37,530 bases of DNA from Anaerolineae bacterium (GCA_020851635.1 JADZCJ010000004.1:1-37530), one strand, 5' to 3'; positions 115 through 34,743 are shown, counted from the first letter of the stretch. The notes: generated by a model not told the origin, from the letters alone. Made by a program: numbers and translations.

Positions 115-951
115 CTAATCGGAAATCGCCGACTCGTGCCAATATAGCAGACGTTTTTCAAGCCAACTCACCAGGGCGGTTAAAAAAATGCCCATGCCGG
201 CGAGCACAACCACCGCGGCGAATACAGAGACCTGTTGCAGGTTCGCAGCCGCCGTAAAGACGACGCGCCCCAGCCCTTCCCCTGCTCCTGCCCACTCTGC
301 CACCAGCGCGCCAATCACGGCGAGACTTACCGAAGTCTTGAACGCGGACAGCACATACGGCAGTGCGTGCGGCGCGCGCAGTCGCCAAAACACTTCAAAT
401 TCGGATGCAGATACACTTTCCAGAAATTCGAGCGACGTTGGGTTGACCGAACGCAGCCCCACGATGGTATTCACAAGGATGGGGAAAAAACAGAGGAGTG
501 CAGCCATCACGATTTTGGGCGTGGGTCCATACCCCATCCATATAATCAGGAGCGGCGCAATGACAATCATCGGGGTCGCTTTGATCAACACAACAAGCGG
601 AAACACGGTCCGCTCCATAAAACGCGATCTGGCAAGCACGGCGGCGATGACCATTGCCACGATAGCGCCAAAGAGGAAACCGGCGACAGCTTCGTAAAAC
701 GTCACGACGCCGTTCCGAAAATAATAACTCGCGTTTTCGACGAGCTCTACAAATACAGCCGATGGCTTGGGGAGGATGATGGGCGAAATGTTTTGAACGG
801 TGACGATGATCTCCCAAAGCAGTCCGAGACTGATCAAAAAGAGCGCGGGGGGCAGCACAGATTCGACCAGGTAGCGCCAGCGCGTATCTGTCCGCTTGAC
901 CTCTTTGACCGCACCGCCGTCCGCGACCAGTTCACGCATCTGTTCCGCCAT
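115..951 (-). CDS. ABC transporter permease, NitT/TauT (SsuC/TauC-like) family
   Basis: Inner-membrane permease of an importer for a small organic anion or related solute, pairing with the ATPase encoded just upstream. The protein has about six hydrophobic segments after a charged N-terminus of roughly 30 residues. It carries the BPD_transp_1 cytoplasmic-loop signature (EFEVFWRLRAPHALPYVLSA), which couples to the ATPase. Length is normal for SsuC/TauC/ThiX proteins. An ATG exists at 957, but the GGGAGG on the coding strand touches it and sits six bases before the second ATG at 951, so 951 is the better start. The gene overlaps the end of the ATPase gene, which implies translational coupling. 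No periplasmic binding protein is visible in the window; it may lie to the left. The substrate cannot be read from sequence. Family call is firm. Confidence 0.93.
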   Translation of the reverse strand: MAEQMRELVADGGAVKEVKRTDTRWRYLVESVLPPALFLISLGLLWEIIVTVQNISPIILPKPSAVFVELVENASYYFRNGVVTFYEAVAGFLFGAIVAMVIAAVLARSRFMERTVFPLVVLIKATPMIVIAPLLIIWMGYGPTPKIVMAALLCFFPILVNTIVGLRSVNPTSLEFLESVSASEFEVFWRLRAPHALPYVLSAFKTSVSLAVIGALVAEWAGAGEGLGRVVFTAAANLQQVSVFAAVVVLAGMGIFLTALVSWLEKRLLYWHESAISD

Positions 952-1732
952 TTCCATCCTCCCGCAGCAATCGCTTTAGTTTTTCGTGATATTCGAGAAA
1001 CTCGGGCGTGCGTTCGATCTCTTCTGTGCGTGGGCGCGGCAGTTTGATTTCCACCACCCCGCGCACACGTCCCGGTCGCGCGGACATCACCGCGACAACG
1101 TCCGACAGGATTATGGACTCGGGGATGCTGTGCGTCACAAACACAACAGTTTTGCGCGACCGTTCCCAAATCCGCAGCAGCTCATAGCGCATCGCCGCGC
1201 GGGTGATTTCGTCCAGCGCGCCGAACGGCTCATCCATCAGCAAGATGCGCGGGTCGAACGACAATGCGCGCGCAATCGCCACACGCTGCTGCATCCCGCC
1301 CGACAACTGGTACGGGTATGCGTCCTTGAACGCGCTCAACCCCACCAATTCCAACAGTTCCGCCGTCGAATGTTGGAGCGGCTTGTTCGCCTTGCGGTTC
1401 ACCGTCAGCGGCACTTCGATGTTTCCCGCCACCGTTTTCCACGGCAGCAGCCCGGGGTCCTGAAAGACAAAACCAAATTCCTTGGCGCGCTGGGCATGAT
1501 GAGGCGTCTCGCCATTGCCGATGGTCACTTTGCCTGTCGTCGGCTCGATCAGTCCGCCCATGATCCGCAGCATCGTGGACTTGCCGCATCCGCTCGGACC
1601 CAGCACGGAATAAAACTGACCCGCACCGATACGCAAATACACATTGTCGAGCGCCCTGACCTGGATTTGCCCCTTGCCGCTCGCAAATACTTTATTCAGG
1701 TTTTGAATGACGATTTGATCTTGAGCAGACAA
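932..1732 (-). CDS. ABC transporter ATP-binding protein, NitT/TauT (SsuB/TauB-like) family
   Basis: Cytoplasmic ATPase that powers the permease encoded next to it. All nucleotide-binding motifs are intact: Walker A GPSGCGKST, Q-loop FQDPGLLPWK, signature LSGGMQQR, Walker B LLMDEP and the switch histidine in FVTHS. The PGLLPW sequence after the Q-loop is typical of the nitrate/sulfonate/taurine group. At 266 residues it has normal family length with no regulatory extension. It lies about 20 bp after the FGGY kinase gene and overlaps the permease start, so it belongs to the grd-kinase operon. The ABC subfamily is clear, but the transported compound is not. Confidence 0.95.
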   Translation of the reverse strand: MSAQDQIVIQNLNKVFASGKGQIQVRALDNVYLRIGAGQFYSVLGPSGCGKSTMLRIMGGLIEPTTGKVTIGNGETPHHAQRAKEFGFVFQDPGLLPWKTVAGNIEVPLTVNRKANKPLQHSTAELLELVGLSAFKDAYPYQLSGGMQQRVAIARALSFDPRILLMDEPFGALDEITRAAMRYELLRIWERSRKTVVFVTHSIPESIILSDVVAVMSARPGRVRGVVEIKLPRPRTEEIERTPEFLEYHEKLKRLLREDGNGGTDA

Positions 1733-1752
1733 CGTTCACTCCTTCGGACCAA

Positions 1753-3204
1753 TCATGGGGGACCCGTGACGACGTTCAATTTCGCATACAAAGGTTTCAC
1801 GCTCGTATACAATTCGCGATACACCCCATACAGGTCCTGATAACGGGCGTGGTTTTCGCGGTTCGGCTCGATCACTTGCTGCGGTCGCATCATCGCTCTA
1901 GCTCCGCGCCCAAAATCCTCAAATACGCCGACGCCCACTCCCGCAATCATGGCGGAGCCCAACACCGCCGCCTCTGTCACCTGCGGAACAACGATGCGCG
2001 TACCCGTTACGTCTGCTTTGATGCGGCACCACAGCTCGCTCGTCGCTTGCCCACCGCAGCAATGAATCTCATCCACTCTCGCGCCTGCGGTTTCGATCTG
2101 GTCCATAATGTGCCGTATCGAATACCCGACCGCTTCCAGAATCGCGCGGGTCATGTGTGCGCGCGTGTGATTCAGCGCCAGACCAAAAAATACCCCGCGC
2201 GCCGTCGTGTCCCATAACGGAGCCCGCTCGCCCGCCAAATACGGCAGAAAAATCAATCGCTCGCTGCCGTCTTGCGCCGCGCCCGCCTGCTCGACCATGG
2301 ACCAATCATCTGGCTCTGCGTAAAGCACATCGCTGCGCCACCAGTCCAGCGCGCGCCCCGATGTAAAGGTCGGACCGCCGAGATAAAACGAGCGCCCATC
2401 AAAGGATGGGATGCAGAAAATACCTTGCGCCGCAAGCGGCTCATCCCAGCACACATTAAAACTCTGCGAGGTCCCGCCATTGTCACACGCAACGCCCCGA
2501 CCCACCGCGCCGCTTCCCAAAATCCCGCCAAAATAATCAGTGATGCCGCCAATCACGGCAAGACCCTGCGGCAGTCCGGTCAATTCCGCGGCGCGCGACG
2601 TGACCGATCCGACCCGCTGACCCATCTCGCGCGTCTCGGGAAGTTTCCGCTCGTCGAGCTCTGATGTCTGCACCAGTCCCGCATCCCACGGCGTCACGCT
2701 CGCCCAGGTTGAGACCACCGGCTCGCCGGTCAGCTGCATCGCCACAAAATCCCATGCCTGGCAAAACCAGCGCGCCCGCGCATATGCGTCAGGGTTCGCT
2801 TCCGACAGCCACATTACTTTGGCAAGGAACGAATGGGACGGCACAGTCCGTTTTGCCCGCTCGGTCAGCGTTTGCGCGTGTCCCGCGGCCCGACGGTCCA
2901 TCCACGTCAGCGCCGGCGCAACCGGTGTCAGCGTTTCATCCACCGCCACCATGGTGGGACCCTGTCCGCCGACACAGACCCCCAGAATCGCGCCCGGCTC
3001 GACCTGTGCGGTCGTTTCTCGTATTGCTCTGACAACGTGCTGCCACCACTCGCGCGGGTCCTGTTCCGCCGCGTCCCCGTCGGTGCGCAGAGCGTCCGGA
3101 TAGTTCGCGACGCGCATTGCCGCCGCGCGCCCATCTATCCCGAACGCGCCCACCTTGACGCGCGTCGTCCCCACATCAATCCCCAACAGCAGCGGTCCAG
3201 TCAC
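1753..3204 (-). CDS. FGGY-family carbohydrate kinase (xylulokinase/LsrK-like)
   Basis: Cytoplasmic kinase that phosphorylates a sugar, polyol or related hydroxy compound with ATP. The N-terminal FGGY domain opens with the phosphate-binding motif GIDVGTTRVK (residues 8-17). The C-terminal half has the second actin-like nucleotide fold, with DNGGTSQSF, a LPYLAGERAPLWD segment typical of xylulokinase relatives, and GGQATSELW. At 483 residues it matches the family. Translation appears to start at GTG (3204-3202), one base after the TAG of the dehydrogenase gene, so the two genes are tightly coupled. With the LsrF-like aldolase two genes upstream it recalls the LsrK/LsrF pairing of autoinducer-2 degradation. 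The Grd genes and missing Lsr transporter argue against the AI-2 pathway itself. Specificity is unknown. Confidence 0.9.
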   Translation of the reverse strand: MTGPLLLGIDVGTTRVKVGAFGIDGRAAAMRVANYPDALRTDGDAAEQDPREWWQHVVRAIRETTAQVEPGAILGVCVGGQGPTMVAVDETLTPVAPALTWMDRRAAGHAQTLTERAKRTVPSHSFLAKVMWLSEANPDAYARARWFCQAWDFVAMQLTGEPVVSTWASVTPWDAGLVQTSELDERKLPETREMGQRVGSVTSRAAELTGLPQGLAVIGGITDYFGGILGSGAVGRGVACDNGGTSQSFNVCWDEPLAAQGIFCIPSFDGRSFYLGGPTFTSGRALDWWRSDVLYAEPDDWSMVEQAGAAQDGSERLIFLPYLAGERAPLWDTTARGVFFGLALNHTRAHMTRAILEAVGYSIRHIMDQIETAGARVDEIHCCGGQATSELWCRIKADVTGTRIVVPQVTEAAVLGSAMIAGVGVGVFEDFGRGARAMMRPQQVIEPNRENHARYQDLYGVYRELYTSVKPLYAKLNVVTGPP

Positions 3205-3205
3205 G

Positions 3206-4255
3206 CTATGGATTCACCACCACCCGGTACGTGCCCAAATCCACCGATGCTTCGAACGCCGGGGTAATCTCATCCAACGAATACGTCGCCGAAATGACAG
3301 AGCGCAAATCCAGAGCGCGCGAGCTCACCACCTGCGCCGATTGTTGAAACTCGATCGGCGAGGTGCTGATCGTGCCAGTCAACACAATCTCGTTGTCGTG
3401 AAACCAGTTTGGGTCCAGATTCAACAGCGCGCCCTTGGGCTCCATCCGCGCATACACCATCACGCGCCCCCCCTTTGCCAGCGCGCCGAACGATGCTTGC
3501 AGCGCGGGCACATAACTCGTCGCCACCACAATCACGTCCGCGCCCCGCCCGTTCGTCAGCCCTTTGACCTGTTCCGCAAAATCACCCGCATTCGGATCAA
3601 TCGCCGCCGACGCGCCAAATTTCAGCGAGTCCGCGCGCCGTCCCGCGTGCGGCTCGCTCACGATCACTTGCGCGCCGCGCCCTTTGCACACCATGACATG
3701 CAAGAGCCCCATCACGCCGCCGCCGACAATTACCACCGAATCACCCGCGACCACATTCGCCTTGTTCACGCTCCGCAGGACGCAGGCGAGCGGTTCGGTC
3801 AATGATGCTTCCAGCAAATCCGCGTCGGGAGAGAGCTTGAACACCTGGTATTCTTTGGCGAGTTTGTGCGTCGCCAGCCCGGCGGGACCCATCGGACCCT
3901 TTGGTTTTTCGCCGCCTGCACGCTTGAACCACACATTTTCGCACGCATATCCGCGCCGGCACGAATAGCAGCTGCCGCAGCGATCAATCGCCCAAATAGC
4001 CACCTTGTCGCCCGTCTTGATGTTGACGACCTGCGGTCCCGTCGCTTCCACGACGCCCGCCATCTCGTGCCCGCCATACAGAGGATAAAAACGCGTGTCC
4101 GCGCCCGTGAACGCCCGCTGTTCGAACGTGCATAGCGCCGAATGTCGCACGCGCACCAACACATCATCCCCAGCCAACCCCGGCAGCGCCGATTCTTCGA
4201 TCTCGACGCGTCGAGGTCCGACAATCACCGCTCTTCGCATCAATTCAGTAGCCAT
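3206..4255 (-). CDS. Zinc-dependent medium-chain dehydrogenase (threonine/sorbitol dehydrogenase-like)
   Basis: NAD(P)-dependent alcohol/polyol dehydrogenase of the MDR superfamily. The GroES-like N-terminal domain has likely catalytic zinc ligands Cys42 and His63-Glu64 (GGHEMAG). The structural-zinc cysteines are Cys93, Cys96, Cys99 and Cys105 in DRCGSCYSCRRGYAC. The Rossmann domain carries GGGVMG near residue 177. At 349 residues it has normal length. The gene sits between the class I aldolase and the FGGY kinase, which fits oxidation of a hydroxyl on the compound the operon degrades. Substrate and coenzyme preference cannot be assigned. The 137-base gap between it and the aldolase gene contains a short AATCAAAAATC-type repeat. 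Confidence 0.92.
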   Translation of the reverse strand: MATELMRRAVIVGPRRVEIEESALPGLAGDDVLVRVRHSALCTFEQRAFTGADTRFYPLYGGHEMAGVVEATGPQVVNIKTGDKVAIWAIDRCGSCYSCRRGYACENVWFKRAGGEKPKGPMGPAGLATHKLAKEYQVFKLSPDADLLEASLTEPLACVLRSVNKANVVAGDSVVIVGGGVMGLLHVMVCKGRGAQVIVSEPHAGRRADSLKFGASAAIDPNAGDFAEQVKGLTNGRGADVIVVATSYVPALQASFGALAKGGRVMVYARMEPKGALLNLDPNWFHDNEIVLTGTISTSPIEFQQSAQVVSSRALDLRSVISATYSLDEITPAFEASVDLGTYRVVVNP

Positions 4256-4392
4256 AATTCGCTCTAGTGACGACTTTCGTCATTCCTTTCAGCTTGACGG
4301 ATCGCATCCCCAAAAATTGCATCTCGCCAATCAAAAATCAAAAACCTGTCTTGGGCTCAGTAAAGGACCGAAATTCGAAAACTACTCAAGCT

Positions 4393-5190
4393 CTAGTCCC
4401 GCAACAGCTCCATCGCCTCTTCCACCGACACGCCGCCATGCACAATCGCCACAACCGCTTGTGTCATCTGCTTTACTCTGGCGTGCCCCCAAATGTTGCG
4501 CCCCATTGCCACCCCGCGCGCGCCCGCATCAACCGCCTCGCGCACCGTCCGCAGCGTGCCCGCATCGTCCTGGCTCTTGGGTCCGCCGAGCACCACAACG
4601 GGCACAAAACAGTTCTCGATCACCCTTTGAAAACTCTCGCGACTGCCCGTGTATTGCGTCTTGACAATATCCACACCCAGTTCCGCGCCCACACGCGCCG
4701 CCAGCGCCAGTGTTTCGGGCAGTCGCGCATCCTCGCCGCCTTCAAACCCGCGCGGCAGCATTTCACCCATCAGCGGCAAACCCCAATTCACACACTGTTT
4801 GCTTAATGCGGCGAGATACGACAGATTCTTGTCTTCGTTTTCCGAACCCGGAAAACCCATCACCACAACCCCGTCCGCGCCGAGTTTCAAAGCCGTTTCC
4901 GCATCATTGATCAGACTGCCGCGCCACGCCTTGCTGCCCAGCTTGGTCGCCCCGCCGTCTACCCGCAGAATCATCGCAGTCGGCATCAGCGGCTCGGCAA
5001 ATTTTTGCGCGATCCCCACCGTCGTCATGATCGCATCCGCGCCGCCTTCCACCACTTGCTCGATCAGCGGCAGCGGGTTCTCCAGCCCCGGTTGAATTCC
5101 AAAATATGCTCCGTGGTCCATCGCCACGATCACCGCGCGTCCCTCCGCCGAAAAAATTCGGCGCATTCGTCGCATTTTTCCAATGCTCAT
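4393..5190 (-). CDS. Class I aldolase/thiolase, DeoC/FbaB (LsrF-like) family
   Basis: TIM-barrel Schiff-base aldolase of the DhnA/FbaB/LsrF group, expected to cleave or transfer the carbon chain of a phosphorylated keto compound. Recognisable points are VAMDHGAYFG near the N-terminus, the likely Schiff-base lysine Lys177 in DIVKTQYTG, and the phosphate-binding C-terminus VVVLGGPK and GVAMGRNIWGH. At 265 residues it is slightly shorter than E. coli LsrF. It lies 64 bases after grdB and 137 bases before the dehydrogenase gene on the same strand. Kinase plus aldolase points to a phosphorylated intermediate split into two smaller metabolites. Fructose-bisphosphate aldolase activity is possible, but the neighbourhood argues for a specialised substrate. 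Confidence 0.9.
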   Translation of the reverse strand: MSIGKMRRMRRIFSAEGRAVIVAMDHGAYFGIQPGLENPLPLIEQVVEGGADAIMTTVGIAQKFAEPLMPTAMILRVDGGATKLGSKAWRGSLINDAETALKLGADGVVVMGFPGSENEDKNLSYLAALSKQCVNWGLPLMGEMLPRGFEGGEDARLPETLALAARVGAELGVDIVKTQYTGSRESFQRVIENCFVPVVVLGGPKSQDDAGTLRTVREAVDAGARGVAMGRNIWGHARVKQMTQAVVAIVHGGVSVEEAMELLRD

Positions 5191-5254
5191 AAGAGTCCGT
5201 TATATACAGCGCGACGCAGTCTTACCCGCCCGGGTAAACACTGCGCCGCGCCTT

Positions 5255-6568
5255 TTACGTTTCAAAGATGGTTTGTTTTTCGATCCGAGCTGCCAACGCA
5301 TCCAGCGAAACTTGCATCACGCGTTTGCGCCATTCCAATTCGTGTTCGGGGTCTTGGGTCGGGTCTCCGGTCGGGTGCGGGATCCGTCCCGCGCGCACGA
5401 TCCGATTTGCGCCGACGGCGGTCGCAACCGATGTCATCGCCGTAATCACAACGGCGGGGAGTCCTTCCCGTTCGATTTCTTTGACGAGCGTTGCGCCGCA
5501 ACGCGTGCCCGTCCCTCAGGTAGCTGTAATAATGATGCCTTCGATGCCCTCTTGCTTCATCCGGTTCGCCATCGCGCGCCCGATTTCCGTGCCCGTCGCA
5601 ATCGGCATCCCGCACCCTACGGTTGAAAAGAATGCATCATACAATTCTGCAAACGCGCCGCCCTTTTCCAGTACGCGCAGCGCGTCAACGGGGACCATGC
5701 GGTTCGGGTCCGCATTTGCAAACCGCGCGTCATATCCGCCGTGCGCCGATTCGTATCCACCCGCCGCAAGCGTGTCCATTCCAAGTATCGAGTAGGTTTG
5801 CCATCGGGTCGCGCGCACCGATTCGATATGGTCGGGATTTCCGGTCGGCACCGTGCCGCCTTCTGTGCCCACCGCAATTGTCGCGTGTTTCAAATCGTTC
5901 ACGGGGTTCGCGGGCGTAACGCGGTCATAGGTCGGCACACGCAGCTCGGTCTCGTATGGTTCGCCGCGCACCTTGCGCAGCAGCATTTGCACGCCGCGCT
6001 TGGCAGCCGTCTCTGGCACAAATACATTGCGCCGTTTGCCGCTCGGCAAATATCCTTCTTGCGCGGGCGTCCCGAGGGTTTCGCCGCGCGCCAATTTCAA
6101 ACCCAGCCGCGCCATCGGCGCAACCGCCTCGCGCATTTTCGCCGCCGTGCCGCCCGTCGGGACCACATAAATATACGGCGCATACACTTCGGCGGCAGGA
6201 TTTTCAGGGGCAACACCCGTGAGCGCAGGAATGCCCAGTTTTTCGTGCGCCACCACGCAAATCTTGCCGCACGCCATTCCATAACGACCCGAATCGAATG
6301 CGGGTCCCGCAATAATCAAGTCGGGCTTGTCGTCCGCGATCTGCGCAATCAAATCATCGGCGACGCGGTCGGCGTTTTCGTTAAAATAGGTGTCACCGCA
6401 CAAAATCGTCGCGACGATCTCTGCGTCCTGCCCAAATGCCGCCTGCAGCGCCCGTCCCGGACCCACCGCGCCTGCGCGCCGTTCCGGACGCGCGTCCGCC
6501 TTGTCCTCGCCGCCGATTCCGGCAAAGAACTGGTTAATGTAATGAACAACCCGAATTTTTTCGCTCAT
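5255..6568 (-). CDS. grdB: Glycine/sarcosine/betaine reductase component B selenoprotein subunit (GrdB-like), in-frame UGA as selenocysteine
   Basis: GrdB is the selenoprotein subunit of component B, which with pyruvoyl-carrying GrdE products binds an amine substrate and reductively cleaves its C-N bond. The reading frame begins MSEKIRVVHYINQFFAGIGG, the usual GrdB N-terminus, with substrate-domain hallmarks CGDTYF, AGPAFDSGRYG and GGTVPTGNPDHIES. A TGA at 5516-5518 interrupts the frame at residue 351, close to where selenocysteine sits in characterised GrdB. Reading through gives TATUGTGTRCGATLVKEIER and then a normal GrdB C-terminus (VGANRIVRAGRIPHPTGDP) ending at 5255, for 437 residues. 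A good stem-loop follows the TGA. The ATG at 6568 overlaps the oxidoreductase stop by four bases; a longer upstream start would add a low-complexity tail. The cysteine I expect three residues after Sec is glycine here. The specific substrate is unknown. Confidence 0.9.
5483..5513 (-). promoter_or_regulatory. Candidate bacterial SECIS element just after the grdB UGA codon
   Basis: On the coding strand the UGA (5518-5516) is followed by an apical stem of seven perfect pairs, GCGTTGC with GCAACGC (5488-5504), closing a GGC loop. A lower stem GACG/CGTC (5510-5513 with 5483-5486) lies below an asymmetric internal loop. The loop begins 19 bases after the UGA and its first base is G, matching the general bacterial SECIS model (short apical loop with G in the first two positions, within a few tens of bases of UGA). 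The stem also lies in coding sequence, so pairing is constrained by the protein. No folding energy was calculated. Confidence 0.65.
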
Positions 6569-7899
6569 CGTTTCCCTGCCACCATCTCCGCCACCCTCTC
6601 CCCCGAGCTCACCGCCGTCTCTTGCGAAGGAAAAATCCCCGTACAATCTCCCGCCAGGAACAATCCATCCCCCCACTCTATCGGCAGCGGCTGTTGGTTC
6701 GGCTGCGGCGCCGCCACGGCGGGACAAATCTTGTATTCGAGCACCTGCTCGTAGCGTTCGCCTTCAAACATCCTGCTCAACGGCTTGTCCGCGCCCGCGC
6801 CTCGATAGGTCAAGACGTTAAAATACTTTAGCCCCTGCGCATCCGTTTGCGCTTCACCGCCAAACAACACCGCACCTCCGTACCCCTCGGCTCGCCAGAG
6901 GTGGAGATTGCCGGGCACATTAGTCTTGCCGTGCAGCAGCCGCGCCGAGCCGCTTCCATACACCACGGCGCCCATTCTTGCGCGCATTTCCGGCACAACT
7001 GCGGCAGCCGCGTTCGCCGGAATCGCCACGACCAATCGCCGGGAACGCACCAGATGTATCACCTCGTCCTGTCTGTAATGCGTCACAAACCCGTCTGCGT
7101 CGCGTTCTACGGCGAGCGCCTGCGCGTTCGTTTCGATCAGCCCGTTCAAACGCGCCGCCAGCGCTTCGGGCAGCTGCATCAGCCCACCGGTCAAATTGGC
7201 GGGGTGACTCAGGTTGAATCCGAGCAGCAGCACTCCAAACGCGGCGGAAATTGTTTCGGGTGCGCTGAACGTGAACGCAATAAACGGGTCAATAAATTTC
7301 CGCCTTAAACTCTCGCCAAATCCAAATTGCGCCGCCCAATCGCTCACGGAACGGTCGTGCAGCGCCAAGAGTTCGTCAAAATGGGTGGGAGACGTCACGC
7401 GGCGCATGTAAAAATAAAATCGCAATAACTGCGCCGCTTCGCCCGGCGTAAAGACGCCCCGCCCCACCAGACCCCGCGCCCCTTCCGCGACCAGCGCGAG
7501 ATTGTTTGCGTGCATCACACGCCCGTCAATGCCCAATACCATCTCGCGCCGCGGAATGATCCGCACCTTGTCGCGCAGCCCCAGCTCGTTCACCAGCGCC
7601 ATATATCGCGGATACGCTGACGGTTGAAACGTCACTGCGCCCAGATTCAAAACATTCGATTCAATTTTTAAACTGCGTACGCGTCCCCCTACCGAGGGTT
7701 CGCGTTCCAACACCATCACATCATCCTGTGTGCAAGGTTTCGCGACTGCTTGCGTATAGCGGTACGCGCACGTCAACCCCGCCAGCCCTGCCCCCAAAAT
7801 CAACACCTGCGTTTGATGTTCTCTCTGCGCCCCGCCCGAGAAATCCTTGTCCTCCGGACTCTGGTCAAACGAAAACCGCTCTCCAAACGCAATCGCCAT
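6565..7899 (-). CDS. FAD-dependent oxidoreductase, flavin amine oxidase/protoporphyrinogen oxidase-like
   Basis: Flavoprotein with the FAD-binding Rossmann motif VLILGAGLAGL near residues 32-42, preceded by about 30 extra residues, then the VLEREPSVGGRV second glycine segment of the amine-oxidase superfamily. The C-terminus has GLFLAGDCTGIFPSQETAVSSGERVAEMV, the usual second FAD-contacting segment. There is no signal peptide or clear membrane helix, so it is probably cytoplasmic. It sits between grdE and grdB, with its stop overlapping the grdB start by four bases (ATGA), which strongly links it to component B. It could oxidise the substrate before cleavage or supply electrons to the selenoprotein. 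Both ideas are inference, because known glycine reductase operons use thioredoxin and thioredoxin reductase for electron supply. Confidence 0.88.
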   Translation of the reverse strand: MAIAFGERFSFDQSPEDKDFSGGAQREHQTQVLILGAGLAGLTCAYRYTQAVAKPCTQDDVMVLEREPSVGGRVRSLKIESNVLNLGAVTFQPSAYPRYMALVNELGLRDKVRIIPRREMVLGIDGRVMHANNLALVAEGARGLVGRGVFTPGEAAQLLRFYFYMRRVTSPTHFDELLALHDRSVSDWAAQFGFGESLRRKFIDPFIAFTFSAPETISAAFGVLLLGFNLSHPANLTGGLMQLPEALAARLNGLIETNAQALAVERDADGFVTHYRQDEVIHLVRSRRLVVAIPANAAAAVVPEMRARMGAVVYGSGSARLLHGKTNVPGNLHLWRAEGYGGAVLFGGEAQTDAQGLKYFNVLTYRGAGADKPLSRMFEGERYEQVLEYKICPAVAAPQPNQQPLPIEWGDGLFLAGDCTGIFPSQETAVSSGERVAEMVAGKR

Positions 7900-8008
7900 G
7901 ATCTATTCGCGAATCTTTTATCGCAAATCGCTGATCGCGGATCGCGGAGCGTCTACCCCTGACGTATCTCCCAATCGAAAATCAGCAATCAAAAACCTAA
8001 AATCTCTC

Positions 8009-9280
8009 TCAATACGCTTGCGCCATCATGTAACCCGCACCCAACTGGTTCGTCGAGCAGTACACCTTGTCCAGCATGATTTCGCGCGCCTGCGTCGCGG
8101 GTTGCGCCGTGTCCAGATACGCCACCCCGCCCAACACTTTGGCGATTTCGGGCAGGAGAATCGTCTTGTCACAGCTCCCCGTGCTCACAATCGTTTCCGC
8201 TTCCGGCACGCTGTCCACCAACGGAAAGTCTTTGCCCTCGGGACCGCCCAACTCGTAGGTAATCACCGTCGTCTTGATGCCGATGCGTTCACATTCCTGG
8301 AGCGTCAGCATCATGTCAATTGCCGAATTGCCCCCGCCTTCGCCCGTCAGCACCACGCCGTCCGCTTTCAAAAATTCGGCGAGCTTGGCTGCGTAATTTG
8401 CCGCGCGCTGTTTTTCCGCCTGCGTGTAATTGTGCCCGCGATAAAAAACAACGCCTGCAAAATCCAACGACTTGCTGTGCTCGGCATACAATTCCTTGAT
8501 CACGGGATTGTTCAAATGCAGATACGTCGGATTTTTGAAACAGGCATAGACAAAATTGGCGCTCACAATCGCCCCGTCCATCGTTTCGTTCGGGTGAATC
8601 AGCGTCGGCACAATATTATTGATTTGAGTTCCGTACAACAACGTGTCGGCGAGCGTCCCCTGCGATTGCGCTTGATAGATATACACGATGCGCGGCAGGT
8701 CTCGCTCGGTGGGCGTCAATTCATAGACCTCACTGCGGTCCGGCTCACGGCCGCCCACCTGTTGTGCAAGGTATTCTGCGAGGCGAAGCGACGCCACACG
8801 CATGGCGGAATCAAAATCGGCATTGTTGGCGCCGGGAGCAGGGACAAAATGCAGCACGAGGTTGGCGGTCGAGGAAAAAATCGAATACGTCGCGGCGGGA
8901 CCACTCATGTCCACCACCGCTTCGCGCGCCTGGAGCAGCCCACCGACCGGGACGGGGAACTCGGCAGTGGTCAGGATCGCCATCCCGTCCAGGCGGCATG
9001 TGCTCCCCGAACCCACCGTTGTGGGGTCGCCGAGCACACCGGGAAAGATTCGCCCGCGTCCCTCGAGCTTGCAGCGCGGCTCGACGGCGTCCAGCAGATG
9101 CACGATCCGCACCTCGTCGCCGGGGTGCGTGATCGCAATCTCGACATCCGCAATGGCCGGATGTTGGGTCAAGAGCGCGGAAATTTCGGCAAGATTCAGA
9201 TAGAGAGTGGCGTCAACGAGGCGCGTCCGGTCGGAAAATTCAAGCCGACGAACGGAAAAGGTGTCTAGTTGTAGGCGCAT
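8009..9280 (-). CDS. grdE: Glycine/sarcosine/betaine reductase component B proprotein (GrdE-like)
   Basis: GrdE is a proprotein that cleaves itself at a conserved cysteine to give two subunits, one carrying an N-terminal pyruvoyl group that forms a Schiff base with the amine substrate. The probable processing site is Cys247 in NFVYACFKNPTYLHLNNP, at nearly the position known for GrdE. Other hallmarks are GRGRIFPGVLGDPTTVGSG (near 74-92), FVPAPGANNADFDSAMR (145-161) and VLTGEGGGNSAIDMM in the C-terminal part. At 423 residues it is full length. It is the first gene of the operon, with a good promoter about 45 bases upstream and no clear Shine-Dalgarno sequence. Betaine- and sarcosine-specific homologues look much the same, so specificity is open. 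Confidence 0.92.
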   Translation of the reverse strand: MRLQLDTFSVRRLEFSDRTRLVDATLYLNLAEISALLTQHPAIADVEIAITHPGDEVRIVHLLDAVEPRCKLEGRGRIFPGVLGDPTTVGSGSTCRLDGMAILTTAEFPVPVGGLLQAREAVVDMSGPAATYSIFSSTANLVLHFVPAPGANNADFDSAMRVASLRLAEYLAQQVGGREPDRSEVYELTPTERDLPRIVYIYQAQSQGTLADTLLYGTQINNIVPTLIHPNETMDGAIVSANFVYACFKNPTYLHLNNPVIKELYAEHSKSLDFAGVVFYRGHNYTQAEKQRAANYAAKLAEFLKADGVVLTGEGGGNSAIDMMLTLQECERIGIKTTVITYELGGPEGKDFPLVDSVPEAETIVSTGSCDKTILLPEIAKVLGGVAYLDTAQPATQAREIMLDKVYCSTNQLGAGYMMAQAY

Positions 9281-9328
9281 TAGATGATTCGGCAGCGAAC
9301 TCTATGCAGTTTGGGGGAGATACCACCG

Positions 9329-9356
9329 ATTCTATCATAATTATCCAATTTGTCAA
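9329..9356 (-). promoter_or_regulatory. Probable sigma-70 promoter of the grdE operon
   Basis: On the minus strand TTGACA (9351-9356) and TAGAAT (9329-9334) are separated by 16 bases. Transcription would begin near 9322 and give a leader of about 40 bases before the grdE ATG at 9280. The region between grdE and the divergent protease gene is AT-rich compared with the surrounding coding DNA. Called from consensus match only. Confidence 0.6.
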
Positions 9357-9393
9357 ACAGATAGGGTATTTTCTTTTTCGCTTCCTTGTCAAG

Positions 9394-9414
9394 CGATACA
9401 AAACAGTTGTATCG
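9394..9414. promoter_or_regulatory. Perfect palindrome in the grdE/protease divergent region (operator candidate)
   Basis: CGATACAA (9394-9401) and TTGTATCG (9407-9414) form an 8-5-8 inverted repeat. It lies about 38 bases upstream of the grdE -35 box and 12 bases upstream of the protease -35 box. Such symmetry fits a dimeric repressor or activator of GntR or LacI type. No regulator gene is found next to it inside the window. Confidence 0.5.
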
Positions 9415-9426
9415 GCGCGATTTTCA

Positions 9427-9455
9427 TTGACATTGATTCCCAATCCCTGTATTCT
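9427..9455 (+). promoter_or_regulatory. Probable sigma-70 promoter of the secreted protease gene
   Basis: TTGACA (9427-9432) and TATTCT (9450-9455) are separated by 17 bases on the plus strand. The start codon at 9553 is about 90 bases downstream and has a strong AAGGAGG six bases before it. The -10 box matches four of six consensus bases. Confidence 0.5.
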
Positions 9456-11289: not shown

Positions 11290-14200
11290 TTAGTCCTCCC
11301 CCAACTCTACTTTTCCCTCATTCCAACGCACCATGCCGCTGATCACCAGATTCTCCATCGCCACCCCAATCCGCCGCTTGACCCTCTCACTCGCGCGCGG
11401 GTATCCCAACAATCGCGCCGTCAGCAGCACCCAGTCCTCTTGCGTCAACGACAACGCGTTTTTCAAATTCAAATACGCCGCACGGGCGATCTCTTCCAGC
11501 GCAATCTCCTGGATCGGACGCGGCTCGTCGCCCGGCGCGGGCTGCCGCACCACCACATCCATCGTCACAGGCGACCACAAGAAATCATCCCGCAGCAGCA
11601 CGCGTCCCTGCGCGATCAGCGCCGCCAGCATCCCATCCAAATGGCTCTCGACCGCAGGCGTCACGCGCGCAATGCCCCAGCAGCCCGCAATTCGCCGCGC
11701 CGCCGCATTCCAATGGATCGGACCCTCCTGGTCTGCCAGTTGCGCAAACAACCCTTGAAACGTTCGCTCGTGCGCGCGATAAAATTGCTCGGGCGTGCCC
11801 TGCCGCGCCAGCGCGACGGGCGCATAGATCGCCATCCCCGTCGGCACAAGCGCGCCGCCGTGCATGCCGTTCCCGTTCGCCGCGGCGTTCGTTCGCTGGG
11901 AATGGAGCGCGTTTTTTGCCCGCCATTCCCAGGCATCGGCGGGTGTGTCCAACACTGTGACCATCTGCTCGATTCGCTCCAGCTCCACATCCCGATTCGC
12001 CAACCAATCGCGCGCTCGCAGGCGATACACCTTCCACCCCAATTGCTCGAGGACCTGCACTCTCAGTCGCTCCCGCTCGCGCGCCGTGTTTGCATTGCGA
12101 TAGCCGTCCCCTTCCAACTCGATTCCCAGTCTATACCGTCCCTCGTCTTTGGCATCCACCAACGCCAGGTCCAGGCGCTCACTCCCCGCCCCCACCCGCG
12201 CGCGGACCTCGAACCCGCGCTCGCGCAGCGCATTCTGCACCAGTTGACGCAGTTCTGCTTCATCCCCGCCCGCGTCCGTTTCCGTCGGCGCAACCGTCCA
12301 TTCTGCCCGCCCTTGCTGCGCCGCATATTCCATGTATGCGCGCAGCAGCTGCGCGCCGCGGCTGTTTGTTCGCGTCAGGTCCAGGTCCACAGGTAAAATT
12401 GAACTCACCAATTTCACCTGGTCGCGCGCCCGCGTCACTGCCACGTTCAACCTTCGCGCTCCATCCTGTCCGTTCAACGGACCAAAATTCATTGTCAGCG
12501 TCCCGTTCAGGTCCCTGCCATAGCCGACGCTAAAGAGCATTACGTCACGTTCATCACCCTGCACATTTTCAAGACTCTTGATAAAAAATCCTTCGCTCCC
12601 TTTGCCGTTCAAATGCGTTTCAAATTCAGGATGCTCGTGGATCAACTTTTGCAATTCCAGATCGATCGCTCCGCGCTGCGCCTGGCTGAACGTCACGACA
12701 CCCAGCGAACGCTCGGGCGATTGCGTAAAATGCTCCAGCACCAGTCCCGCCACGCGCCGCGCTTCAACCACATTGGTCCGCGTGTTGGCGCGGTCATACA
12801 CCCCATCCGGCACATGCACCAACTCGACCCCCAACCGCGCGTCATGCGCCGCCGCATTCGGAAAGGTCACCAACCGGTCCTCGTAAAAATAATGATTCGA
12901 GAAACCCAACAACGCTTCGTGCCGACTGCGATAATGCCATTTCAAGCACACACTCGGCAAGACGATGGACGCTTCCTGCAGCAAACTCTCCAACACCATC
13001 GGCTCACCCACTTCTTGCTCTTCCAACTCGCCCAACGTTTGAAAAAATGGCGTCGGCGGCAGCTGTTGGTGATCGCCCGCCACGATGACTTGTTTTGCCC
13101 GCACAATTGCCGTCACCGCTTCTTCGGGCGGGATCTGTGACGCCTCATCAAAAATAACCAGGTCAAACATTACAGGCGCGGTCGCCAGATACTGGCTCAC
13201 CGACAGCGGGCTCATCATCAAGCACGGCTTGAGCGCCAGCAAAAGATTTGGAATCTCTGCCGCCAACCGTCGAATGGACTTGTGATGTTTCCGCTTTGCC
13301 ATCTCACGCTTGAGCAGCGTCACCTCCGAGCTCGGCGCGTCGCTCCACCCTATCGCGGGCCGCGCCGCCGCCAACTTGGTCACCAATCGTTCGCGCGCGA
13401 TCCTGAGCTGCTCCACATCTGACCGGCAGAATTGCGCCGCCCCCTTGCGATACACCTTTTCACCCTGTTCCAAGATGGGCGTCCGGGCATATACCCCGTC
13501 CAACCACAAGCGATAAAACCGTTTCAAGAACGCGGGTTTCAATTCGTCGCTCGGCAGTTTCGCCGCCCGCGCCGATTCCAAAAACGCGCCCCCGCCCAGT
13601 CTTGTCAGCTCTTTGCACTCGGCTCTCAGCGCCAGCCACATCTCCAGCTCGCCCACTCGCTCCAGCCGCAGCGCGAGCCAGCTCCGCACCACACTCAGAG
13701 TCTCGGCATACAAAACAGAGACCCAATCCGGAAAAAGATGCGCCAGATAATCCCATTCGCGTCGCCATTCCTCACGCACCGCCTCGAACTTTAGTATCAG
13801 AGGACGTTTCGCATTCAATCGCGCAGGACGGTTGCACACCAGGTTTGTCAGCCCCTCCGGCACGCTCTCGGGCGCAAAAAGGGCGGACAGCTCATCCACC
13901 CAGTTCAACTGCGTCAGGACCACGCCCCAGTCCGTCTCGCGTCCTGTAAATGCCCGCTCAAAGCGCGTCCGATACTCTGCCTGTCGTTCCTCGATTCGTC
14001 CGGTTCGTTCCTGCAGCTCCACCGCCTCCCGGACCGCCTCGATTGCGCTTGACGGCTCCACAGCTTCTTGTCCCCGACGCGCGGCGCGCACCAGTGCCAT
14101 GTCTTGCCGGTATTGTCCATCCAGAATGCGCAGGGGCTTGCCTTGTGCCGCCTCCAACCGCGTTTTTATCTCGACAAGGTCACTGCGCTCCAAAAACTCG

Positions 14201-16362
14201 TCTGTGTATCGCTCCGACCACCTTGCATACGCTTCGCCATATTCGCGCGCTTGCTTTTGCGCCTCCCACGCCAGCGCGCGCAGCTCGGACGTCTCACCCG
14301 CGCGAAACCATCCGCTCGGCGGCATCGGTGTTTCCAGCGCATGTTTCGCAATCGCGGCAAGCCGGTCAATACCCTCACAAGTTGCCGGTTTCGGCAGTCC
14401 AAACGACTCGGCAACTTGCTCTGCGGTGGTTTCCAACCCGGTCAACGCGCGCATCAGTTCACCCAGGCGATACTCTATCGCCGTCCGCGTGTGAAACGTA
14501 TATTTGGTCAGCTCCACCCCGCGCCAGGGGTTCGCCTCTTGCTGTTCCCACACCTCGCCGCGCGCCGCGAGATTCTCCAGTGACTCGTCCAACGCCGCAA
14601 ACTGGCTTGCGTCAATCGTCTCAACCGCAGGCAGCTCAAAATAAAGTTCAGGCGCATCGCCCAATCGCGCCAGCGTCACATATACATGAAACGGCGATTT
14701 ATTCAACGGCGCGACCGGCGTGTGCAGCGCGCGCGCATACGCATTCAATTCATCACGTAACTCTGCCAGTTGCGCCAATCGTTCCAGAGCGGGCGCATGT
14801 TCGGGATACGACTCGTACAACGCCTGTCCCAGTTGCGCGACCAGCGCCCCCCGGCTCGAGTTATGGCTGTGTGCCTCCAGATAAAAATTCGCCAGCCCGC
14901 ACTGTCCCAATCGTTTCGCCACCACATCCAACGCCGCCATTTTGGCGCTGACAAACAACACCTTTTTGTTTTGCGCCAATGCCTCGGCAATGATATTGGC
15001 AATGGTCTGGCTCTTGCCCGTTCCCGGCGGACCCTCGATCACAAAATTCGCGCCGCGTTTTGCCCATTCGATCGCCACCTGCTGGCTCGAATCCGCATCC
15101 AGCACTTGAAAATTCTCTGCGGGCCGAGTCCGGTCATCCAGGTCGCGCGCACCGGGCAGGTCGGTCGGGGGCGCGGGCAGCTGTGATGGGTCACCCGCCA
15201 ACGCCCGCAAAACCGGATGCGCCTCGATCTGTTGGGCATGTGCTTCCAAATCTCTGAGCATCACCAATTTTTCAAACGAATACAATTCCAAATAAACGTC
15301 CGGCGTAATCCTCCATGTCGGCAAATCCGGCAGGGCAGCGCGAATCAAGTCAAACACACCGCTCGGCGTCAGCCCTTCGCTCTCTTCCGGCAAGCGCGGC
15401 AGTTGAATTCGAAAATCCATATAGAGTTTGTGCGCCAGCGTCGGGTTCAACAAAATATCTTCATCCCGAATCGTCAGCGTAAACGGCTGTGTCACCGCCT
15501 GACGGTCCAACTGCACCGGCGCCAGCAGCAGCGGCGACTGCGCCGCTTCGCGCGTCGTCGGATCCACCCAGTGCAGCAAGCCAAACGACAAGAACAAAAC
15601 ATTCACCCCCTGCTCTTCCAGCGCCGTGCGTGCGTGCGCGCGCAGGTTATACAAGGTCGTCGCCAACGCCCCCTCATTCAACATCGTCCGCAGCTCATTC
15701 CGCCGACCCCCAATCTTTTCCGGCTCAGCAAGAGACTTGGCATCTCCCTCCGTCGGACCGGTCTCTTGTTCAGCAAGACAGATCACCGCAGAAATCTCGA
15801 CTCGCTCAACGGGAATCTGATTTCGAGCCGCAATGTCCTGCATCGCAGAAATATCCTCGCCGTCGGGACCGTTGTCATTTCGCGTCGCGAGGGGTTCTCT
15901 CGCTGCAATGTCCTCTATCGCAACGATGTCTTCCATCGCAGCGATGTCTTCTACCGCAGCGATGCCCTCCATCGCAAAAATCCCCTCACCGTCAGGACCC
16001 TTGCCATTTCGAGCGGCGCGAGAAACCTCTGCGCCCGCATCAATCGAACTCCCATTTCGCCCCGCGCCGTGCTCGATTGCCGCAATGCTCTCAATTGCCG
16101 CAATGCTCTCAATTGCCGCAATGCTCTCAATTGCCGCAATCTCTTGCCCTTCCTCAGGCAACGCGCCCCCTTCCTCATCCTCCCTCCCCACAAACGTCAG
16201 TTTTTTGCCTTTTTGCGCCAACGCCTCAAAAATCTCATCCGCGCCCGGCGCGACGATTTGCGCATGTCCCCGCCGCGGCGTCAGATACAACAGACGATTA
16301 CGCCTGCTCGTATCAAGCAGGCGTGTTTTCCAAACCGCAAATTTTTCCATCAATTCTGACAT
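11290..16362 (-). CDS. DUF4011 / superfamily 1 helicase / Vsr-like nuclease / DUF3320 protein
   Basis: Large cytoplasmic protein (1690 residues) predicted to unwind and probably cut nucleic acid. The N-terminal DUF4011 part starts MEKFAVWKTRLLDTSRRNRL. The SF1 helicase core has Walker A GPPGTGKS (444-451), Walker B VIFDEAS (Asp1072-Glu1073), motif III AGDHQQLPPT, motif V ENVQGDERD and motif VI VAVTRARDQ (about 1309). A Vsr/MTES_1575-like endonuclease domain follows (about 1370-1460), with LDLALVD and LGIELEGDGY supplying acidic residues. DUF3320 ends the protein (about 1500-1690). Related DUF4011-helicase-nuclease proteins occur in anti-phage systems such as Mokosh relatives. The N-terminal part is interrupted by a repeat-rich insertion (about residues 75-190). 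It is the last gene of a tight S41-HTH-helicase run. Exact function is unknown. Confidence 0.9.
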   Translation of the reverse strand: MSELMEKFAVWKTRLLDTSRRNRLLYLTPRRGHAQIVAPGADEIFEALAQKGKKLTFVGREDEEGGALPEEGQEIAAIESIAAIESIAAIESIAAIEHGAGRNGSSIDAGAEVSRAARNGKGPDGEGIFAMEGIAAVEDIAAMEDIVAIEDIAAREPLATRNDNGPDGEDISAMQDIAARNQIPVERVEISAVICLAEQETGPTEGDAKSLAEPEKIGGRRNELRTMLNEGALATTLYNLRAHARTALEEQGVNVLFLSFGLLHWVDPTTREAAQSPLLLAPVQLDRQAVTQPFTLTIRDEDILLNPTLAHKLYMDFRIQLPRLPEESEGLTPSGVFDLIRAALPDLPTWRITPDVYLELYSFEKLVMLRDLEAHAQQIEAHPVLRALAGDPSQLPAPPTDLPGARDLDDRTRPAENFQVLDADSSQQVAIEWAKRGANFVIEGPPGTGKSQTIANIIAEALAQNKKVLFVSAKMAALDVVAKRLGQCGLANFYLEAHSHNSSRGALVAQLGQALYESYPEHAPALERLAQLAELRDELNAYARALHTPVAPLNKSPFHVYVTLARLGDAPELYFELPAVETIDASQFAALDESLENLAARGEVWEQQEANPWRGVELTKYTFHTRTAIEYRLGELMRALTGLETTAEQVAESFGLPKPATCEGIDRLAAIAKHALETPMPPSGWFRAGETSELRALAWEAQKQAREYGEAYARWSERYTDEFLERSDLVEIKTRLEAAQGKPLRILDGQYRQDMALVRAARRGQEAVEPSSAIEAVREAVELQERTGRIEERQAEYRTRFERAFTGRETDWGVVLTQLNWVDELSALFAPESVPEGLTNLVCNRPARLNAKRPLILKFEAVREEWRREWDYLAHLFPDWVSVLYAETLSVVRSWLALRLERVGELEMWLALRAECKELTRLGGGAFLESARAAKLPSDELKPAFLKRFYRLWLDGVYARTPILEQGEKVYRKGAAQFCRSDVEQLRIARERLVTKLAAARPAIGWSDAPSSEVTLLKREMAKRKHHKSIRRLAAEIPNLLLALKPCLMMSPLSVSQYLATAPVMFDLVIFDEASQIPPEEAVTAIVRAKQVIVAGDHQQLPPTPFFQTLGELEEQEVGEPMVLESLLQEASIVLPSVCLKWHYRSRHEALLGFSNHYFYEDRLVTFPNAAAHDARLGVELVHVPDGVYDRANTRTNVVEARRVAGLVLEHFTQSPERSLGVVTFSQAQRGAIDLELQKLIHEHPEFETHLNGKGSEGFFIKSLENVQGDERDVMLFSVGYGRDLNGTLTMNFGPLNGQDGARRLNVAVTRARDQVKLVSSILPVDLDLTRTNSRGAQLLRAYMEYAAQQGRAEWTVAPTETDAGGDEAELRQLVQNALRERGFEVRARVGAGSERLDLALVDAKDEGRYRLGIELEGDGYRNANTARERERLRVQVLEQLGWKVYRLRARDWLANRDVELERIEQMVTVLDTPADAWEWRAKNALHSQRTNAAANGNGMHGGALVPTGMAIYAPVALARQGTPEQFYRAHERTFQGLFAQLADQEGPIHWNAAARRIAGCWGIARVTPAVESHLDGMLAALIAQGRVLLRDDFLWSPVTMDVVVRQPAPGDEPRPIQEIALEEIARAAYLNLKNALSLTQEDWVLLTARLLGYPRASERVKRRIGVAMENLVISGMVRWNEGKVELGED
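15897..16142 (-). repeat. 18-bp tandem repeats inside the helicase gene
   Basis: Four near-perfect copies of an 18-bp unit (plus strand CTCAATTGCCGCAATGCT) run from 16072 to about 16142. Diverged copies (15911-15928, 15929-15946, 15947-15964, 15965-15982) form a second block. Each unit adds six residues (ESIAAI, EDIAAM and similar) in frame, between conserved DUF4011 segments. Sequences around the blocks (CATTTCGAGCGGCGCGAGAA and a diverged copy near 15877) resemble an intergenic repeat. The array probably varies in copy number between strains. Confidence 0.9.
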
Positions 16363-28859: not shown

Positions 28860-31800
28860 CTAATTCGCAACCTGCGCGGCGGGCGCATACACATACGGTG
28901 GGACGGATGCCGCCGACGGAGGGCGCATCATTTGCTGATACTGTTCGATGTGTGGGCGCGGCGTGTACCCCACCAGGTCCACCCGCCCCACAATCTCGTC
29001 CAGCGAACGCGCGCCAATACGCGCAAGCCACTCGCGCGTTTCCTCGGCAACAAACAAATAATACGCCATCACCCATTCTGCCACCTGCGGGAATTTTTTG
29101 CGCAGTTCCTGCTTTTGCGTCGCAATCCCGACCGGGCAGGTGTTCAGATGACACGCGCGCGCCATGATACAGCCACTCGCAATCAGCGCCGCGGTGCCGA
29201 ACGAAAACTCTTCTGCGCCCAACAGCGCGCCGATTACGACGTGGCGCCCGGTCTTGAATCCACCATCCACACGTAAACGGACGCGTCCCCGCAGATCGTT
29301 GGCTACTAGGACCTGCTGGGTCTCTGCCAGCCCCAATTCCCACGCAATCCCCGCGTGTTTGATCGAGCTTAACGGGGACGCGCCCGTGCCACCGCTGTGA
29401 CCCGAGATGTGAATGACATCGGCGTATGCTTTGGCAACCCCTGCCGCAATGGTGCCGACGCCATTTTGCGCGACCAATTTGACCGATACTTTGGCGCGTG
29501 GATTTATGCGTTTGAGGTCATAGATCAACTGCGCCAGGTCTTCGATCGAATAAATGTCGTGATGCGGCGGCGGCGAAATCAGCGTAATCCCCGGCTGAGC
29601 ATGCCGCACTGCCGCAATCTCCAGACTCACCTTGACGCCGGGCAGTTGTCCCCCTTCGCCCGGTTTCGATCCCTGCGCCATTTTGATTTGCAATTCCGTC
29701 GCGCTCATCAAATATGCGGGCGTCACGCCAAATCGCGCCGAAGCCACCTGCTTGATCGCGCTGTTGTATTCTGTGCCATAGCGCGATGGGTGTTCACCGC
29801 CCTCGCCGCTGTTCGCCAGCGCGCCGAGACGGTTCATCGCTTGACTCAGCGTCTGATGCGCTTCCAGCGAAAGCGCGCCATGCGACATGGCTGCCACGGA
29901 AAAGCGCTTGACCAGCGTCTCGACCGGCTCGACCTCACTCAACGGGACCGGCTCGCGCGGCACAAATTGCAAAAAATCGGCAAGGTCCGTCGCAGGGCGT
30001 TCGTTCACCAACGACGCATAACGCTTGTATTTTTCATACGCTTCTATCCAGTGGGCGCCCTTGTGCGTCTCGAACATAGCAGGTGAGCGCCGGTCAACGC
30101 CGGAACTCGTCTCCAACGCGCCGGGTGTGCGCACCGCATCATGCAGCGCATCCACAATCTCGGGATTAAAGGCATGATATTCCCCGCCCTTTTTGAATTT
30201 GAAATAACCATAATTATAGAGACGTTTCGCGGCGTCGCCGTTCACGCCAAACGCGCGCGCGTGATGGCGCAGCGTCGTATCGGCAATCTCGCCCAGTCCG
30301 ATCCCGCCGACGGACGACGACGTCCCCGTAAAGTATGGCACAATCACCGATTCGTCCAATCCGATACATTCAAACAGCTGCGCGCCGTGATAGGCGTCCA
30401 GCGTGGCAACGCCCATCTTGGACATGATTTTCAAAATGCCCTTGTTGGATGCCGCCGCATAATTTTCCTGCGCGCGGACCGCGTCCAGTTCTATCTTTTT
30501 ACTGCGGCGGTCCTCGAACATAGCGCGGACCGTTGCCAACGCCAGATACGGATTGAACGCGTTTGCGCCATAACCGATCAGACAGGCAAATTGATGCACG
30601 TCGCGCGCCTCACCCGTCTCGCTGATCAGACTCGTCTGCCACCGCAGACCCACCCGCAGCAAATGATGATGCGTCGCGCTCACCGCCAACAGCATCGGCA
30701 TAGGCGCGCGCTGTGCGTTTGTGTTGCGGTCGGACAAAATCAAGACCGTCTTGCCATCGCGAGTCAGACGTTCTGCCTCGGCGCACAGCCGTTCCACCGC
30801 ATCGCCCAAATCTTCGGTCACCGCAAAGGTCGCATCCAATGTCGCCTGCGGAAACTCGCCGCTCAGCGAGCGGATTTGCGCCAACTGCGCCTCTGTCAAG
30901 AACGGCGACAGCAGCTCCAGGAGATGCGCATGGGTCGGCGTCTCTTCCAGAATGTTGCCGCGTCCGCCCAGAAAAACGCGCGTGGACATGATCAATTCCT
31001 CGCGCAGCGGGTCAATCGGCGGATTTGTCACTTCAGCAAACCGTTGGCGAAAAAAATGATACAGCGGGCGATCAAATTCCGACAGAAACGCGTGTGGCGT
31101 ATCGTCACCCATCGCGCCAATTGCTTCCTGCTTGTTTTCCGCCATCGGTTTGAGCAAGACGACCAGCTCTTCGTCGGTATAGCCAAATAGAGATTGTAGG
31201 GTAGAGATTGAGGATTGGAGAGAGATCGGAAATTGGAGATCGAGCTCTTTTTGTTTCCCCGTTTCTCTGTCTGCCTGTTTCAACGTCCGAATATACTCAC
31301 CAACCCAGTGCGCATAAGGACGTCGCGAGGCATAGTGCGCCTTGATCTCGTCGTTCTTCCACAGTTTGTTGTAGTGTAGGTCTGCAACGATCATTTGCCC
31401 CGGACCGAGACGCCCCTTTTGTTTGATCCGCTCCGGCTCGATATCCAGAGCGCCCGCTTCAGATGCCGCCATGGCAAACCCATCGTGCGTCACCAGCCAG
31501 GTCGCGGGACGCAGTCCGTTGCGGTCGAGCGTCATGCCCGCCACGCGCCCATCGGAAAAGCAAATCGCCGCCGGTCCGTCCCACGGCTCCATCAGCGTCG
31601 CGTGATAGCGATAAAATGATTTGACTTCGGGCGCCAGGTCACGCACGTTCTCCCATGCTTCGGGCATCAACATCATAACCGCGTGCGGCAGCTCACGCCC
31701 TCCCAGCGACACCAGCTCCAGCCCATTGTCCAAAATCCCCGAATCGGACGAGCTCACATCCAACAGCGGCTGAAACGAACTCGCATTGGCGCCAAATTCA

Positions 31801-32654: not shown

Positions 32655-32746
32655 CAGCTCGTCTCCTCATATCCCAGCTTTTTCGCCGCTTGATCTTGCG
32701 GGCGCAGGGGCGCCCCTCAAAGGAAAAAGTGTCTTGCGAACGCCCG

Positions 32747-32962
32747 TTACGAACTCGTGTGCGTGTTCGAGTCGGACGCGCGCAGGGATTCGTCACTGGC
32801 GTTCTTGTGCGTCCCCGCCACATATCGCCGCGCGCCTTCGATAAAGATCACTTGTTTGCAAATCACGCAATTGCTCTCGTCCAACGCATACGCAAATGCC
32901 ACTTCTTTGTCAAAGACGTTCGAGACCTGACGAAGATGTTTCTTGCACAAACCGGGTTGCAT
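32747..32962 (-). CDS. Small zinc-ribbon-like protein in the nitrogen operon
   Basis: Unrecognised protein of 71 residues. It has Cys in PGLCKKHLRQV and the pair CVICK in ESNCVICKQVIF, plus His in KKHL, a pattern that could hold one zinc ion. The tail is Ser/Asp/Asn-rich. The ATG at 32962 is chosen; the longer version starts at a TTG inside a large inverted repeat and is rejected. It lies between the PII gene and gltB on the same strand. Its presence in this operon suggests a regulatory or assembly role, which is inference from position only. Confidence 0.6.
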   Translation of the reverse strand: MQPGLCKKHLRQVSNVFDKEVAFAYALDESNCVICKQVIFIEGARRYVAGTHKNASDESLRASDSNTHTSS

Positions 32963-32986
32963 TTTTGATTCTCTTTCTCGCTCCCG

Positions 32987-33024: not shown

Positions 33025-33085
33025 GTTGGGCGATCTGCTACAAATACATAACAACAACTATAGGTCCGACCGGTCCTGAATCCGC

Positions 33086-34737: not shown

Positions 34738-34743
34738 TACTGT

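Follow-up and report, generated by a model that had tools for sequence, protein, structure and literature searches.

A probable component B of a glycine-reductase-type system, lacking the GrdE pyruvoyl cysteine, in a putative eight-gene operon of an Anaerolineae bacterium

The GrdE- and GrdB-like proteins encoded near one end of the Anaerolineae DNA analysed here (37,530 nucleotides, hereafter the window) are, on balance, best understood as the substrate-specific component B of a glycine-reductase-type system split over two gene clusters, with GrdA, thioredoxin and GrdC encoded on another contig (C38) of the same genome. We consider it fairly probable that this system belongs to a divergent group within the phylum which dispenses with both the GrdE pyruvoyl and GrdD and which yields an acyl thioester. 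To our knowledge, few substrates of this selenium-dependent bond-breaking machinery are known, namely glycine, sarcosine, betaine and fluoroacetate, with D-proline for a related reductase. A divergent branch lacking both the pyruvoyl and the phosphate-releasing subunit would widen its chemistry as well as its energy-coupling step, and concrete residues and gene pairs can now be given for testing.

The families assigned to the eight genes at 115-9280 by the initial annotation were borne out by Pfam and NCBIfam for all eight minus-strand open reading frames:

8009-9280, minus strand: grdE-like component B subunit, 423 aa (PF09338, 5e-131; best NCBIfam match GrdG, 334 bits, below the cut-off of 780)
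6565-7899, minus strand: FAD oxidoreductase with amine-oxidase fold, 444 aa (PF01593, 3e-25)
5255-6568, minus strand: grdB-like selenoprotein, 437 aa, with Sec351 (TGA at 5516-5518; PF07355, 6e-139; read-through ORF)
5478-5515, minus strand: SECIS element RF01990 SECIS_4 (Rfam, 39.8 bits, gathering score 38)
4393-5190, minus strand: DhnA/LsrF-type class I aldolase (PF01791, DeoC/LacD, 1e-40; PRK07226, 253.9 bits, above the cut-off of 241)
3206-4255, minus strand: zinc-binding MDR polyol/alcohol dehydrogenase (PF00107/PF08240; best NCBIfam match IolM, 135.6 bits, below cut-off)
1753-3204, minus strand: FGGY carbohydrate kinase, xylulokinase/gluconokinase-like (PF00370/PF02782; XylB, 251 bits, below the cut-off of 380)
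932-1732, minus strand: ABC importer ATPase, TauB/SsuB/SaoA-like (PF00005; best NCBIfam match SaoA, 210 bits, below the cut-off of 360)
115-957, minus strand: ABC importer permease, TauC/SsuC/SaoP-like (PF00528; NCBIfam)

Read from 9280 towards 115, the genes run in the order grdE, FAD oxidoreductase, grdB, aldolase, zinc dehydrogenase, FGGY kinase, ABC ATPase and ABC permease, separated by 109, -4, 64, 137, 1, 20 and -26 nt; the stop of the FAD oxidoreductase gene and the start of grdB thus share 4 nt. Gaps in this range (-26 to 137 nt) make a single operon plausible. The contig (C4) ends 114 nt past the permease gene, so that the transport operon is cut there. The SECIS_4 element lies directly 3' of the grdB TGA and the frame is open to 5255. 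SelB (348.7 bits against a cut-off of 242) and tRNA-Sec (69.5 bits against a gathering score of 47) are both encoded in the genome. For the FAD oxidoreductase, no close relative was found among 400 genomes of the phylum, and its structure, predicted without an alignment, was set aside (pLDDT 38). The nearest solved structure to the aldolase is MJ0400. Elsewhere in the window, a helicase-like protein of 1690 aa (11290-16362) has, close to its N terminus, an 18-bp tandem repeat at 15900-16144 that keeps the frame and encodes IAAIES, and genes for glutamate synthase, P-II and an ammonium transporter stand in a row at 28860-34803.

In C. difficile GrdE, the pyruvoyl opens the peptide 242-266 (PMC9908766), and in those clostridial homologues whose start could be placed, position 242 is occupied by the SGNC cysteine. 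The window GrdE carries Phe243 in place of this pyruvoyl-forming Cys242, which contradicts the pyruvoyl Schiff base chemistry originally proposed for the locus. The cysteine is kept in GrdG of P. acidaminophilum and in all GrdE rows obtained for the named loci of other phyla (Firmicutes, Synergistota, Coprothermobacterota), and it is missing from every same-phylum GrdE row recovered. Betaine GrdI has a phenylalanine at this position, as the window GrdE does, and FarE has been reported to lack the cysteines including the pyruvoyl one (PMC10838667). The Sec region of the window GrdB reads TATUGTGTRCG, as opposed to TSTUGTCTRCG in the glycine, sarcosine and betaine enzymes (ATUGTG versus STUGTC). 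With this sequence, both the STUG serine, which has been proposed as a carbonyl source (PMC10838667), and the UxxC cysteine are gone. Judged from these residues, the component B of the window is probably pyruvoyl-free; the loss of Cys242 does not prove that every carbonyl cofactor is absent.

The residues that mark glycine- and sarcosine-type enzymes are also missing. The published whole-protein motifs that distinguish glycine-type from sarcosine-type GrdB (PMC9751293) were applied to a set with controls, in which 18 of 19 glycine-type sequences were sorted as glycine and GrdF as sarcosine. Neither motif fits the window GrdB or any other same-phylum sequence in the set. The best NCBIfam matches were GrdF for GrdB (527 bits, cut-off 800) and GrdG for GrdE, while the GrdH model scored 464 bits on GrdB (cut-off 775) and the FarE model 152 bits on GrdE (cut-off 675). 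Assignment as a sarcosine, betaine or fluoroacetate enzyme was rejected on these scores and on the failing motifs. A tree was built from 38 GrdB sequences. The window protein falls outside a clade (99/97) whose glycine, sarcosine and betaine enzymes come from other phyla and which holds all characterised substrate types sampled; it sits on a long branch among same-phylum sequences, its exact sister not being resolved. The missing residues make another substrate likely, and component B would thus probably act on a compound other than glycine, sarcosine or betaine, in line with the non-standard substrate first suggested for it. Plasmid searches returned reference enzymes only.

The lack of GrdA, GrdC and GrdD partners, on which the initial annotation had built, holds at the locus itself and, for GrdD, in the draft genome as well, but not for grdA, grdC and trxA. 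A whole-genome search placed GrdA (3e-54, with an in-frame TGA) at C38:19555-19992, in a co-directional run with TrxA and with GrdC (NF040746, 634.6 bits, cut-off 450). Rfam recognised no SECIS after the grdA TGA. As the genome contains exactly one GrdB copy, the grdA, trxA and grdC genes on C38 and the component B genes of the window form two halves that complement each other. The assignment of C4 and C38 to one organism rests on binning, with 3.2% contamination. The GrdD model NF040747 had no match in this draft of 144 contigs, and GrdD could sit in an unassembled part. Two PF02504 proteins were considered as GrdD candidates and rejected, both lying beside fatty-acid synthesis genes and leaving NF040747 unmatched. 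An operon for component B that is distinct from that for A/C has been described for the sarcosine reductase of Clostridium FS41 (PMC4417704) and a stand-alone component B for fluoroacetate reductase (PMC10838667), so that missing local partners are not in themselves unusual.

The C38 genes belong to a large co-directional catabolic cluster (C38:1-30400). Ahead of grdC, trxA and grdA, it encodes an NMT1-type binding protein, two hydantoinase pairs, a molybdenum hydroxylase, an isochorismatase-fold hydrolase and a CoA transferase; further genes encode Fe-ADH, ALDH, acyl-CoA dehydrogenase, MaoC, SDR, thiolase, luciferase-like, M20 and aldo-keto proteins. With two hydantoinase A/B pairs, isochorismatase-fold and M20 hydrolases and an NMT1-type binding protein around the grd genes, this run resembles the routes by which N-methylhydantoin degraders turn an N-heterocycle into an N-substituted glycine. 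Component B could then be a sarcosine (N-methylglycine) reductase that ends a pathway of the N-methylhydantoin or creatinine type, in which HyuAB and an isochorismatase-type amidohydrolase would deliver an N-substituted glycine and Grd would convert it to an acetyl thioester and an amine. Clostridium FS41 is known to have such a pathway with split gene clusters and Tissierella creatinophila to have the pathway, and the sarcosine models GrdF and GrdG are the best NCBIfam matches of GrdB and GrdE. Both scores are far under their cut-offs, however (527/800 and 334/780), the window GrdB does not match the sarcosine motif, real GrdG has the pyruvoyl cysteine that the window GrdE lacks, and the kinase, aldolase and dehydrogenase would be left unexplained. 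We therefore regard this alternative as unlikely, although the hydantoinase genes beside grdA suggest some N-substituted glycine as the substrate.

The two contigs may also divide an importer between them: ATPase and permease stand unpaired at the start of C4, and an NMT1 binding protein stands unpaired at the start of C38. In orientation these parts fit head to head, and C4 and C38 may possibly be adjacent in the genome; the contig ends share no 15-mers and do not overlap. In Thermosediminibacteraceae, a Tau-type importer (binding protein, permease and ATPase) follows complete grd operons, for example at 6656-9431 of locus L051, and by analogy the importer of the window most likely serves the Grd substrate.

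The survey of relatives covered 400 genomes of the phylum as well as the 80 best named GrdB loci from GTDB r220. GrdB proper was found in 11 of the 400 genomes, including the present one (one case being partial, at a contig end), but in no other sampled member of the source's own class; a wider search of one class for further GrdB loci found none. Some of the same-phylum genomes that carry GrdB have three or four copies. No GrdD over the cut-off was found in any of the ten GrdB-bearing relatives (G019, G169, G270, G193, G329, G065, G252, G137, G231 and G073). The window proteins were searched with tblastn around 13 other same-phylum loci and the best 80 named ones. Near these 93 loci, no relatives of the aldolase, the dehydrogenase or the FAD oxidoreductase were detected, and a single, distant FGGY kinase was. 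Apart from that kinase, no other locus examined links the kinase, aldolase or dehydrogenase to grdB and grdE, and the joint pathway that the initial annotation had seen in them therefore rests on one genome. Such a lack of linkage is one of the two outcomes that the initial annotation had named as refuting its proposal; the presence of grdA and grdC on C38 is half of the other, which also called for co-regulation with the locus.

The same three enzymes do form a unit of their own elsewhere. FGGY kinase, DhnA/LacD aldolase and MDR dehydrogenase, all present in the window, make up a ketose kinase-class I aldolase module, and such sets occur without grd genes in G201 and, together with Gfo/Idh oxidoreductases and an RpiR-type regulator, in G105 and G209. 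An aldolase-dehydrogenase pair with 42-46% identity is likewise found without grd genes in G011 and G145; in G145 it stands alone, and in G011 it adjoins methylamine-type methyltransferase and PTS genes. At that locus (L141, G011:C518), the aldolase and dehydrogenase relatives lie beside MttB-like and MtbB-like methyltransferases, a corrinoid protein and a mannose-type PTS. The operon might accordingly be fortuitous, with two unrelated units side by side, one of grdE, FAD oxidoreductase and grdB, the other a sugar module of aldolase, dehydrogenase, kinase and importer. The 64-nt gap between grdB and the aldolase gene would suit such a boundary, whereas importers of the type found at the far end also accompany grd operons in Thermosediminibacteraceae. 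We rate this arrangement as a serious possibility, if a somewhat doubtful one; it is compatible with our preferred explanation of the Grd part.

In a modified form, the original idea of one pathway would have component B cleave an alpha substituent (amine, ether or thioether) of a sugar-like or polyol-bearing carboxylate, after which the freed polyol would be oxidised, and then phosphorylated and cleaved by the FGGY kinase and the aldolase, respectively, all within one pathway. The co-directional genes with their short gaps are consistent with this, and polyol dehydrogenase, FGGY kinase and aldolase give a coherent ketose-phosphate route. Among the relatives, a LacI regulator lies directly upstream of the Grd genes in G019 and G193 (only 2 of the 93 loci scanned), and genes for sugar ABC transporters, enolase-superfamily proteins or fucosidases are found near other same-phylum Grd copies. 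Between some of these sugar neighbours and the grd genes, however, other genes intervene, the importer is of the Tau/NMT1 kind rather than a sugar importer, and the three enzymes are linked to grdEB in the present genome alone. A single pathway of this kind thus seems improbable. In locus L185 (G019:C38:62000-75708), genes for a NagA-like deacetylase, a SIS-domain protein and an AnmK-type anhydro-N-acetylmuramic acid kinase occur at 2535-6002, some kb downstream of a Grd operon.

Returning to the preferred reading of a two-cluster system, we infer a mechanism in which the importer would bring in the substrate and the selenocysteine of GrdB would attack the alpha carbon of a compound of the type X-CH2-COO- without a Schiff base. 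As with betaine or fluoroacetate, the leaving group would not have to form a Schiff base. The carboxymethyl group would then pass on to the selenocysteine of GrdA, from which the FabH-like GrdC could free an acyl thioester, probably acetyl-CoA rather than acetyl phosphate, so that GrdC would have to transfer the acyl group to CoA unaided. The dehydrogenase, FGGY kinase and aldolase, as a common ketose-phosphate module, may process a polyol-like remainder or may represent a separate sugar pathway. The clues to the substrate disagree, as the hydantoinases on C38 point to an N-substituted glycine and the LacI regulators at two relatives to something sugar-like; in view of these regulators and of the sugar-related genes near other same-phylum copies, the substrate may be sugar- or polyol-like. 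Extended to the phylum, one could imagine that the GrdE-GrdB-GrdC-TrxA-GrdA systems, free of pyruvoyl and GrdD, strip an alpha substituent from sugar-derived or polyol-bearing carboxylates to give acyl-CoA, and that the polyol released here is channelled through this operon's dehydrogenase, FGGY kinase and aldolase; we hold this to be a speculative and rather unlikely generalisation.

Compared with the glycine reductase GrdABCDE, the genome shares GrdB and GrdE homologues, a selenocysteine in GrdB, a GrdA selenoprotein, thioredoxin and GrdC, but it differs in lacking GrdD, Cys242 in GrdE, the glycine-type GrdB motif and STUGTC. The sarcosine reductase GrdF/GrdG of Peptoclostridium acidaminophilum has the same two subunits with a selenocysteine in GrdF (46% identity for GrdB), and some species encode its component B away from A/C (PMC4417704); its GrdG has the pyruvoyl cysteine and its GrdF the TSTUGTC sequence and sarcosine motif, whereas the window has none of these. 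Fluoroacetate reductase FarB/FarE of Cloacibacillus resembles the window system as a stand-alone component B that feeds GrdA/C, in which FarE lacks the pyruvoyl cysteine and FarB the CxxC (PMC10838667). The FarE model nevertheless stays at 152 of 675 bits, and radical SAM and antiporter genes are lacking from the window operon. In the betaine reductase GrdH/GrdI (Enterococcus gilvus plasmid record), GrdI also has a phenylalanine in place of the pyruvoyl cysteine, but identity is only 40%, GrdH keeps TSTUGTC and the operon includes grdD and a BCCT transporter. The Grd operon of G019 (L042) differs in that its five Grd genes stand together behind a LacI regulator and in that FAD oxidoreductase, kinase, aldolase and dehydrogenase are lacking. 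It shares the absence of the pyruvoyl cysteine and, in its genome, of GrdD, and all five Grd proteins of the present genome match this one operon (GrdE 53%, GrdB 51%, GrdC 58%, TrxA 53% and GrdA 62%).
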